The position numbers and the translations under genes were made by a program. From Rubeoparvulum massiliense (GTDB lineage: Bacteria > Bacillota > Bacilli > Rubeoparvulales > Rubeoparvulaceae): a stretch of 64,000 bases of DNA. The notes beneath the pieces are model-generated. The model was not told the DNA's origin. It saw only the letters and a list, made by a program, of their open reading frames with translations, and did no database searches. The stretch is from the NCBI RefSeq assembly GCF_001049895.1, contig NZ_CVPE01000006.1:952503-1016502 (forward strand), given 5' to 3'. Positions 21,200 to 24,683 of this stretch are shown here, one piece after another. Positions within the stretch are counted from its first letter, which is position 1. Every line of letters begins with the position of its first letter.

Positions 21200-22360
21200 T
21201 TATTGAACCTGAGCAACAATTTTTTCTGCTGCATGAGCCAACGAATCTGCTGCCACAATAGGTAGACCCGATTCACGGAGAAGCTGCTTACCTAACTCAA
21301 CATTGGTGCCCTCTAAACGAACCACCAATGGAACCTTCAGTTCCACTTGCTTGACCGCATTAATAATTCCCGAGGCGATCACATCACATTTCATAATCCC
21401 GCCAAAAATATTGACAAGAATCCCTTGTACTTTAGGATCGGAAAGAATGATTTTAAATGCCTCTGTTACCTTCTCTTCACTAGCACCGCCACCTACATCG
21501 AGGAAGTTAGCTGGTTCGCCACCATAATATTTAATAATGTCCATGGTAGCCATGGCTAAGCCAGCCCCATTCACCATACAACCGATATTTCCATCTAAGT
21601 TAATATAGGTCAGATCATACTTCGATGCTTCAATTTCCATGGGATCCTCTTCATCTAGATCGCGATAGGCTACCAATTCTGGATGACGGAAGAGTGCATT
21701 GGAATCAAAGTTTAATTTTGCATCCAAAGCCATAACTTGATTGTCACCTGTGACGACGAGAGGGTTAATCTCTGCGATAGAGCAATCCTTTTCAATAAAT
21801 GCTTGATATAACCCTAGCATAAACTTCGTAGCATGATTGATAAGAGAATGGGGAATATGTATGGCAAATGCCACTTCACGGGCTTGATATGGCATAAGAC
21901 CAACAGCAGGATCAATGGCTATTTTGATAATTTTTTCAGGCGTCTTTGCAGCAACCTCTTCAATATCCATACCGCCCTCTTCTGAAGCCATCAAAACAAC
22001 ACGACCTGAGCCTCGATCTAAAACCATACCCACATAATACTCTTGCTCAATCTTGCAACCTTCTTCAATGAGAAGGCGCTTTACTTCCTTGCCTTCTGGA
22101 CCTGTCTGATGAGTAACCAATGTCTTCCCTAGTAATTCCTCTGCATATTGATGCACTTCATCCAAGCTTTTCGCAAGCTTAACTCCGCCTGCTTTCCCCC
22201 GTCCACCTGCGTGGATCTGTGCTTTAACAACATAGATGGGTCCTTGCAATTGCTTGGCCACCTCTACAGCTTCATCTACTGAAAAAGCTACCCCACCTGC
22301 AGGCACCACGATGCCATAAGATTGTAAGATCTCCTTGCCTTGGTACTCGTGAATGTTCAT
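21200..22360 (-). CDS. sucC: Succinyl-CoA ligase (ADP-forming), beta subunit
   Basis: The 386-residue beta subunit has an N-terminal ATP-grasp domain ([24 protein letters not shown]) and a C-terminal CoA-ligase domain ([27 protein letters not shown]). It is the first gene of the sucCD operon, with a recognisable promoter and a symmetrical upstream element. The ATG follows AGGAGG. Confidence 0.98.
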
Positions 22361-22432
22361 TCTCCATCCTCCTAATTAACGGATAAAAATAATAGCATAT
22401 CCTGATCTTAGAGGTTACTTCCTTCCATCATG

Positions 22433-22461
22433 AGAATAACCGATTTTACAAAATAATTCAA
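22433..22461 (-). promoter_or_regulatory. SigA-type promoter of sucCD
   Basis: TTGAAT (22461-22456), a 17-base spacer, then TATTCT (22438-22433) on the minus strand, about 70 bases upstream of the sucC ATG. Spacing is ideal and each hexamer matches consensus at 4-5 of 6 positions. Confidence 0.65.
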
Positions 22462-22465
22462 ACAT

Positions 22466-22483
22466 ATGTAACATTTTTTACAT
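22466..22483. promoter_or_regulatory. Perfect palindrome ATGTAA-N6-TTACAT next to the sucC -35
   Basis: ATGTAACATTTTTTACAT spans 22466-22483: perfect 6-bp arms around a 6-base T-rich centre, ending 4 bases upstream of the sucC -35 hexamer. The TGTAA-N6-TTACA geometry recalls Crp/Fnr-family half-site spacing (TGTGA-N6-TCACA), but the half-sites differ. An operator or activator site is inferred; the regulator is unknown. Confidence 0.45.
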
Positions 22484-22615
22484 AGAAACTTAATCTTTCA
22501 TTTTTGGAATATTATATATTCATTTGATTTTTTATACCATTTTTTCATAGTATAAATCAATCACCACCTCATATAATGATTACTGTGGAATAGAAAGGCT
22601 TTAAGGATGACGGGC

Positions 22616-22640
22616 AAAAAAAAGAGAGGCGTAGCCTCCC
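22616..22640 (-). terminator. Intrinsic terminator of the 39-residue peptide gene
   Basis: On the minus strand GGGAGGC (22640-22634), loop TAC, GCCTCTC (22630-22624) form a 7-bp stem with one G-T wobble, followed directly by eight T. It begins one base after the stop codon of the small gene at 22642. Confidence 0.9.
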
Positions 22641-22641
22641 A

Positions 22642-22761
22642 TTACTTAGGTGTACGACCCAATTTGAATGTGAAGCGGAAATGTTGGGTTCCTTTTTCAA
22701 TGACTAATTGAATTCCTGTGATCCGAACAAGAAAGAGCGTGAAGAGAAAAGCCCAGTTCAT
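22642..22761 (-). CDS. Unannotated 39-residue small membrane protein
   Basis: Forty codons from ATG 22761 to TAA 22642. The SD AAAGGGGTGA is close to the ideal Bacillus sequence and well spaced, and a strong intrinsic terminator follows immediately. The peptide begins MNWAFLFTLFLVRITGIQL, one hydrophobic segment (~3-20) interrupted by Arg13, followed by a basic polar tail (…KGTQHFRFTFKLGRTPK). A weak promoter (TTGAAA-17-TATTCC) can be drawn 50 bases upstream; otherwise it could be read through from the MFS gene. I do not recognise the family. SD, reading frame and terminator together make it a likely real gene; function unknown. Confidence 0.75.
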   Translation of the reverse strand: MNWAFLFTLFLVRITGIQLVIEKGTQHFRFTFKLGRTPK

Positions 22762-22847
22762 ACCATCACCCCTTTCTATTCCATGTTATTAGGAAGGGAA
22801 TAAAAGGAAAAGGGTCCTATTTCAAAAATATGTAATATGGATGGGCT

Positions 22848-24068
22848 TTATGTCATTTTTTCGAATTTATTCTTGGATCGAATGTTTTTTTTATGAAAGC
22901 GAAGCATAAGCAATAAAAGCAGTAATGAACAAACTTGTAAAATAGAGAGTAATCCTCCGATACCCCTCCACCCAAATTGACTCCAAAACCAGCCCCCACC
23001 TGCACCGATGATACTAGAGCCTAAATAATAAAAGAGCAAATAAAGTGAAGAGGCATGTGCTTTATGATCTTCTGCTCGTGCTCCTACCAGTGAGCTTGCT
23101 GTGGAGTGACTCCCAAAAAAGCCAAAGGTGAAGCAGCCTAAACCAAGAATCACAATCCATAAATGCTCTACCATGGTTAACTGGATCCCGATGAACATCA
23201 TACTAATATTGATGAGAAGCGTCCAGTGATCACCGAAACGTTTTCGTACCAAGCCCATGGTGTTGGAACTAACAGTCCCCAACAAATAGATAATGAAAAT
23301 CCAACCCACTAGACTTTGACTTAGTGAAAAAGGTGGAAGTACTAAACGATAGGTTAAATAATTGAACATGGTGACAAAGCTCCCCATGAAAAGGAAAGCC
23401 AATAAAAATAATGGTAAGAGGCGAGGATTTAGGAGATGCATGCTGTAGGTCTTCATCGATTCACTCAAAGTAAAACGGTGAGGTCGAGTATGGGTTGGTT
23501 CTGGAAGATACCGCCAAAACCAGAAGGCACTAGCTAAGCTTAAAAGCGCTAAGATGACAACAGCCCAGCGCCAGTCTGCTAAGTCTGTAATCACGCCGAT
23601 AAGAATACGGCCGGTCATTCCGCCGATGGCTGTTCCACTTACATAGAGTCCCATGGCGGTGATAATACTTTTTGGATGATACTCTTCACCGATATAAGCC
23701 ATGGCAATCGCAGGGAATCCAGCGAGGAAGAATCCCTGTAATAATCGAATTGCTAGCAGTAGCTGGAATTGTGGTACCAGCACAATAAAGAAAGCAAGAA
23801 GCGAAGAAAGTAATAGGGACCATGACATCAAGGTCTTTCTTCCTAAACGTTCTGCTAGCTGTGAAGCAAACACAATAGCTATGGCAAGTGTGGCAGTAGA
23901 AAAAGAGACGGAAAGACTCGCAACCGTAGGACTCACACCGAATTCCTCTGAGAATACTGGGAGAAGCGGTTGGGTGCAATAAAGTAACGCAAATGTTACA
24001 AAGCCCCCAGCAAATAATGAAGTATTGGCTTGCCAATATCGTCGTTCTCCCTGTTGAATATATTGCAC
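22848..24068 (-). CDS. Major facilitator superfamily transporter, YnfM/YybF-like
   Basis: A 406-residue protein with about 12 transmembrane helices in two halves. The MFS signature between TM2 and TM3 is visible (A-S-Q-L-A-E-R-L-G-R-K-T-L). A-I-G-G-M-T-G-R-I-L-I-G and W-R-W-A-V-V in the first half, and F-F-G-S-H-S-T-A-S-S in the second, resemble drug/sugar efflux proteins of the YnfM/AraJ group. Substrate unknown; export of a drug or metabolite is inferred. The start is GTG after GGAGGAG. It separates yraN from sucC, which are closer together in B. subtilis, so it is probably a lineage-specific insertion. Confidence 0.88.
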   Translation of the reverse strand: MQYIQQGERRYWQANTSLFAGGFVTFALLYCTQPLLPVFSEEFGVSPTVASLSVSFSTATLAIAIVFASQLAERLGRKTLMSWSLLLSSLLAFFIVLVPQFQLLLAIRLLQGFFLAGFPAIAMAYIGEEYHPKSIITAMGLYVSGTAIGGMTGRILIGVITDLADWRWAVVILALLSLASAFWFWRYLPEPTHTRPHRFTLSESMKTYSMHLLNPRLLPLFLLAFLFMGSFVTMFNYLTYRLVLPPFSLSQSLVGWIFIIYLLGTVSSNTMGLVRKRFGDHWTLLINISMMFIGIQLTMVEHLWIVILGLGCFTFGFFGSHSTASSLVGARAEDHKAHASSLYLLFYYLGSSIIGAGGGWFWSQFGWRGIGGLLSILQVCSLLLLLLMLRFHKKNIRSKNKFEKMT

Positions 24069-24109
24069 GATGACTCCTCCTCGACTATTTCAACAATGGA
24101 TAAAGGAAA

Positions 24110-24481
24110 TTAACTATCAATGTGCTGAATATGTTTGACTCGATATGTTGAACGAGTGCCCTCTTTTGAAATGAATATATCAATCATATCTAAACGAATA
24201 TCATTATAGAAAGTAGCTGAGCTTGTTAAATAGTGAGTAGCAGCCTTGCGAATTCGTTGAAGCTTTTTCCTTGTTATTGCCTCGATACCACTTCCATATG
24301 CCAAACTTCTTCTTGTCTTCACTTCCACAAAGATGATGGTATTTCCATGCTGTGCAATGATGTCAATCTCCCCGTGTTTCGTCCAATAATTTTGGCATAA
24401 AATTTGGTATCCCTGCTCCATCAGATACAGTGTTGCCTTCTCTTCTCCCCATCGTCCTACTATATCAGCCCGCTTTCTCAC
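24110..24481 (-). CDS. yraN: UPF0102 protein YraN, predicted endonuclease fold
   Basis: About 123 residues of the YraN/UPF0102 family, a predicted PD-(D/E)xK nuclease-like protein often near rnhB and dprA. Visible motifs: G-R-W-G-E-E-K-A-T-L-Y-L, N-Y-W-T-K-H-G-E-I-D-I-I-A, F-V-E-V-K-T-R-R-S (catalytic D and ExK). I prefer the GTG at 24481 because AGGGGG lies 8 bases upstream; the longer ATG at 24508 overlaps the preceding gene and lacks an SD. In vivo role not established to my knowledge. Confidence 0.85.
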   Translation of the reverse strand: MRKRADIVGRWGEEKATLYLMEQGYQILCQNYWTKHGEIDIIAQHGNTIIFVEVKTRRSLAYGSGIEAITRKKLQRIRKAATHYLTSSATFYNDIRLDMIDIFISKEGTRSTYRVKHIQHIDS

Positions 24482-24500
24482 CAGATTTTCCCCCTCAATC

Positions 24501-24683
24501 CTATTCATGCTCTGCCTGTTCCATCATCGTGTAAAACTCCATGATTAACTGAGCCAGTTCCTCTGGTATTTGCCGTTCGGTTTCTAATCGACTCAATGCA
24601 TCCACAAGGTCTGGGTCCTCCTGAATGGGTAAACCATGGTCTTTCACAATCTGGATCCATCTTGGGGTAGAAAGATCATTCAT
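24501..24683 (-). CDS. Shortened FlhB C-terminal-domain-like protein (YlqH position)
   Basis: A 60-residue protein whose residues ~8-58 (W-I-Q-I-V-K-D-H-G-L-P-I-Q-E-D-P-D-L-V-D-A-L, Q-I-P-E-E-L) match the last part of the FlhB/EscU cytoplasmic domain. Stand-alone FlhB-like proteins (YlqH) are known at this site in Bacillus. This one starts inside the domain and lacks the N-P-T-H-type cleavage motif and first strand; I found no such sequence in any frame just upstream. The ATG overlaps the stop of the upstream gene (ATGA), so it is a clean coupled gene, not an obvious frameshift. Confidence 0.7.
   Translation of the reverse strand: MNDLSTPRWIQIVKDHGLPIQEDPDLVDALSRLETERQIPEELAQLIMEFYTMMEQAEHE

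Follow-up and report, generated by a model that had tools for sequence, protein, structure and literature searches.

Does the 39-codon open reading frame (ORF) that lies between an MFS exporter-like gene and sucC constitute a gene, and if so, what might its product do? The ORF occupies positions 22761-22642 on the minus strand of the window, i.e. the whole analysed DNA stretch of 64,000 nucleotides, and encodes MNWAFLFTLFLVRITGIQLVIEKGTQHFRFTFKLGRTPK. Directly 5' of its start stands AAAGGGGTGATGGT-ATG, in which the Shine-Dalgarno (SD) sequence AAAGGGGTGAT (22765-22775, minus strand) is placed with 7 nt between its last core G and the ATG, and has a duplex energy of -17.8 kcal/mol with the 16S tail. 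The near-ideal SD proposed in a first-pass annotation was thus located and described correctly, being near-consensus and at ideal spacing before 22761. Downstream, an intrinsic terminator (22640-22616, minus strand) consists of a 7-bp stem with a TAC loop, GGGAGGC-TAC-GCCTCTC at 22640-22624, and eight T at 22623-22616; as had been proposed, the stem begins one base after the stop codon of the ORF. It is the sole terminator-like site found in 22350-24600. Such closeness of stop and stem is ordinary in this genome: of 24 long genes that have a terminator-like stem close by, 7 have it no more than 9 nt from the stop. The ORF had also been considered too short for gene callers and therefore overlooked, which is not supported: it measures 120 bp, and the usual minimum ORF for gene callers such as Prodigal is 90 bp.

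Coding evidence was evaluated against a background of 464 kb of the same genome, consisting of the window plus twenty 20-kb pieces of its contig. Comparison sets from these 464 kb comprised 380 intergenic ORFs of 25-75 aa outside longer ORFs, and 340 long genes. The SD:anti-SD energy ranked first among the 380 intergenic small ORFs, and was attained by just 2 of the 340 long genes. The codon score of 0.54 corresponds to approximately the 5th percentile of the long genes and exceeds that of 93% of the intergenic ORFs; among 39-codon pieces taken from real genes, 16% scored lower. When all six frames of the stretch were compared, its own frame was best, with 0.55 vs. at most 0.35 elsewhere, and the ORF combines the properties expected of a protein-coding sequence, namely a ribosome binding site, gene-like codon usage and a frame that beats the other five. 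A strong SD and a terminator occurred together in only three of the 380 intergenic small ORFs, this one included; of the other two, one reads as ribosomal protein L28 and one resembles DUF1540, and both look like ordinary genes. When the 487-nt intergenic region was shuffled with its dinucleotide composition preserved, 0.02% of the shuffles contained an ORF that was both 39 aa or longer and preceded by such an SD.

Irrespective of the SD, an ORF of at least 39 aa was obtained in 78% of these shuffles, which, like the absence of homologues described below, would suit a chance ORF that is not translated, with a terminator that does no more than end the MFS transcript. Such a coincidence, which we consider quite improbable, has against it the combination of SD strength, spacing, codon usage and terminator position. 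In all likelihood the ORF is translated, and what follows the MFS gene is very probably a true small gene; the earlier proposal of such a gene, with an SD and a terminator of its own, is backed by SD rank, codon score, terminator and shuffles.

For structural characterization, the peptide was analysed for hydropathy, charge and fold. Hydropathy reaches its maximum of 1.93 over residues 3-21, and the tail carries most of the net charge of +5. AlphaFold, run on the single sequence, predicted one helix spanning residues 3-34 with a mean pLDDT of 75.7, and of about 85 at residues 1-20. These values agree with the earlier description of a hydrophobic helix interrupted by an arginine and followed by a basic tail, with Arg13 falling inside the hydrophobic stretch and rendering the predicted membrane span marginal. 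According to the positive-inside rule, a basic tail is expected to face the cytoplasm, and the prediction is most naturally read as a peptide that crosses the membrane once and leaves its tail on that side.

Homologues of the peptide were sought in 399 genomes of the class and 398 of the phylum (overlapping sets, nearly 800 genomes) as well as in plasmids and phages, and none was found; all matches returned by the genome searches were at chance level, and several (L002, L073, L128) lay on the strand opposite a real gene. The relatives compared were all class-level, i.e. from the same class, and none from the same genus, family or order. The peptide had no match in Pfam, NCBIfam, PHROGs, PADLOC or PDB, and these library searches assigned it to no named small-protein or toxin family; the region had no match in Rfam. 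A second pair of MFS gene and peptide was found in none of the genome sets searched. From the lack of a homologue it follows that the gene is confined to its lineage or too short for its relatives to be traced; that the gene is false does not follow.

The MFS exporter-like gene (22848-24068, minus strand) matches PF07690 with 2.1e-46 and stays below every NCBIfam cut-off. Its GC content is ordinary for this genome, and its codon score of 0.52 and purine fraction of 0.44 fall near the lower limit for long genes, as expected for a very hydrophobic protein. Its stop codon is separated from the small ORF by 86 nt, and since a terminator is absent between them, the two are presumed to share one transcript. 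Translational coupling to the MFS gene was considered and dropped, as a gap of 86 nt counts against it (PMC12548453) and, together with the moderately masked SD, does not suggest tight coupling.

Gene order around sucC was compared with that of relatives, with the names of neighbouring genes read from translations. The upstream neighbours of sucC were flhB-like (L083, L093, L094), rnhB (L088, L090, L091), UPF0102-like (L080), comM-like (L081, L085), or others, and an MFS gene was visible within 1.5 kb upstream of sucC in none of the 17 relatives inspected. Relative to these, the MFS gene and the peptide gene are extra material between UPF0102 and sucC. As sucC is preceded by other genes in the relatives, without a visible MFS gene, the pair looks inserted, and the earlier suggestion of an insertion into a conserved order stands: the pair interrupts the usual order and was seen before sucC in none of the 17 relatives. 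MFS orthologues with 36-50% identity are present in many families, located elsewhere than upstream of sucC, and none of them is followed by a comparable ORF. A scan of named genomes gave a single match, a 39% MFS homologue in Bacillus pinisoli, likewise without the peptide.

Our best guess, offered tentatively, is that the product is a small membrane protein specific to this lineage that cooperates with the MFS exporter; this guess takes its start from a computed coding signature, SD, terminator and gene order, and from a helix that is predicted. The small gene would be the last cistron behind the exporter gene, co-transcribed with it and closed by its own terminator. The 39-residue single-span peptide would insert via its N-terminal hydrophobic stretch, leaving the basic tail in the cytoplasm, and would bind the co-expressed MFS transporter, whose activity, specificity or stability it might adjust in the way AcrZ and MgtS act on their transporters. 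This reading is favoured by coding signals that rank with those of real genes, by a terminator after the peptide and none between it and the MFS stop, by hydropathy, charge and the one predicted helix, and by the joint presence of both genes as additional material next to sucC; moreover, modulation of transporters by small membrane proteins is an established phenomenon (PMC10710835). It is weakened by the searches, which yielded neither a homologue nor a second MFS-peptide pair, by MFS orthologues of up to 50% identity that manage without the peptide, by the 86-nt gap with its moderately masked SD, and by Arg13, which makes the span marginal.

The described small transporter modulators AcrZ, MgtS, MgtR, MgtU and WatS1 (PMC10710835) resemble the peptide in having fewer than 60 residues and one hydrophobic helix, and the small ORF here stands directly behind a transporter gene. 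No sequence relation to them was found. In the examples that the review works through, the partners are for the most part RND pumps, P-type ATPases and PTS systems from Gram-negative species (PMC10710835), whereas the putative partner here would be an MFS protein, with an interaction proposed by analogy. Should the peptide bind this exporter, a Gram-positive lineage would provide a small protein that partners an MFS transporter; otherwise, the ORF would be one more lineage-specific small gene, chiefly of use to illustrate that a short gene can be recognized by SD strength, codon score and terminator combined where a conservation test is out of reach. In a rival reading, the peptide is a small membrane protein of this lineage that shares no more than a transcript with the MFS gene and has some other role in the envelope. 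The same coding evidence applies to this possibility, MFS orthologues elsewhere lack the peptide, and neighbourhood by itself is no proof of partnership; the location of the ORF as the last gene of the MFS unit and the joint absence of the pair from the sucC region of relatives favour a link to the transporter, and we judge a separate envelope role somewhat unlikely. As an orphan small membrane protein gene with a candidate role, the locus is an ordinary kind of thing, and probably real.

For RNA features, a repeat search identified a perfect 13-nt inverted repeat, with one arm at 22771-22783 (minus strand), overlapping the SD, and the other at 22586-22598 (plus strand), beyond the terminator, separated by a gap of 172 nt. 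Such a repeat was obtained in 0.45% of shuffles vs. 5% of real 500-nt windows of this genome, and is at most suggestive because of the latter frequency. A mobile cassette bounded by the repeat was rejected, as it is present in single copy in the genome and no duplicated flanks were seen. The SD is predicted to pair with an upstream pyrimidine-rich segment, its opening energy of 11.5 kcal/mol corresponding to the 90th percentile of ordinary genes; removal of the 5' arm, as by a terminating ribosome, is predicted to leave the SD unopened, and the fold of the whole region has a z-score of -0.85. A special SD-masking structure was discarded on account of this merely 90th-percentile opening energy, at or near chance.

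The repeat could also be read as part of an RNA device, in which translation up to the stop would hinder termination, and read-through into sucC would bring an anti-SD arm that shuts the SD of the peptide. The repeat joins the SD and the read-through sequence, and read-through lifts the computed opening energy of the SD from about 11 to 19 kcal/mol. However, the frequency of similar repeats in this genome and the ordinariness of a stop-to-stem spacing of 0-9 nt count against such a device, as does the finding that RNA polymerase in B. subtilis runs ahead of the ribosomes, which therefore seldom disturb terminators (PMC12207403, PMC13323073). For the same reason, a spacing of one base between stop and stem is to be expected in Bacilli (PMC12207403, PMC13323073), and we regard the device as very unlikely.

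In another reading, the gene would encode a type I toxin on the pattern of TxpA/RatA and BsrG/SR4: a short hydrophobic peptide, with a convergent antisense RNA that silences its mRNA and that here would start at about 22584 (plus strand) and overlap the gene in its 3' part. The peptide fits in size, in its helix and in its basic tail (PMC6562991), and the SD region can pair. Transcription from a perfect TATAAT at 22572 (plus strand) would begin at the left arm of the repeat, and at 22677-22697 (plus strand) there is a weak stem, GGAA-TTCC, together with TTTTT. This TATAAT, which has no -35 element, and the weak five-T stem are the only antisense candidates on the plus strand; the -35 position matches at just 2 of 6 bases, and the terminator stem has only 4 bp. 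Against a toxin speak further the single copy in the genome, the masking of the SD at merely the 90th percentile of ordinary genes, and the searches of Rfam, Pfam, NCBIfam and PADLOC, in which neither peptide nor locus matched a described toxin or antitoxin RNA family. In summary, the likeness to type I toxins (PMC6562991) consists of a short hydrophobic helix, a charged tail, an own terminator and a conceivable convergent antisense RNA; the differences are the missing family match, the weakness of the antisense promoter and terminator, and the location behind a chromosomal transporter gene, not in a stand-alone module. We hold a toxin to be improbable. That the gene founds something new, be it a family of small proteins that bind an MFS exporter and tune it, or a type I toxin paired with convergent antisense RNA, so far in one isolated Bacilli lineage, is conceivable, with the odds somewhat against it.

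Two weak matches from the genome searches proved to be N-termini of AraC-type regulators, and the ORF could be a relic that retains the N-terminus of such a gene, the remainder being lost. Several AraC regulators (L097, L102, L104) align with the peptide without gaps from the start Met on, with 38-42% identity over 31-34 residues. Profiles were built from 30 collected regulator loci; that of the close subfamily placed the peptide above 2000 shuffles (11.8 vs. 9.5 bits), whereas a wider profile placed a shuffle above the peptide. The search from which the lead came is expected to yield dozens of equal matches, an unrelated sodium-transporter family fits the peptide equally well, and no further AraC sequence is found downstream of the ORF. 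The peptide lacks the N-terminal PPFP and the RTF-V-F-D-LLYV core that would mark an AraC fragment, the PPFP being invariant in the regulators, as well as a conserved second Arg, and the regulators adjoin other genes (MATE-type transporters, amylase-like) than this MFS gene. The resemblance, striking in pairwise alignment, failed the profile and search-size tests and is at or near chance; we rejected the relic as very unlikely. The collected regulators (L074/L097-L114) form an AraC-type subfamily with an invariant N-terminal PPFP and a KHF-RTF-VFDLLYV core, mostly encoded next to MATE-type transporter or amylase-like genes.

Several further features were recorded in the window and in the same genome. 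Between the terminator of the peptide gene and sucC, at 22531-22556, lies an operator-like near-palindrome, TTTATACCAT-6-ATAGTATAAA. The leader region upstream of sucC contains a 16-codon ORF at 22500-22574 (minus strand), MKKWYKKSNEYIIFQK, behind GAGGTGGTGAT, and further down than this ORF, at about 22438-22466, a promoter-like pair TTGAAT-17-TATTCT for sucC. At 24501-24683 (minus strand), a 60-aa ORF (MNDLSTPRWIQIVKDHGLPIQEDPDLV...) resembles a shortened FlhB-C-terminal-like (YlqH-type) protein, versions of which have 86-96 aa in relatives. Elsewhere in the genome, a 32-aa glycine-rich membrane ORF, MSACGGGGYGGGFTLILVLFILLVIIGASLYA, with a strong SD (L038:12560-12658, plus strand), resembles YjcZ-type sporulation peptides.
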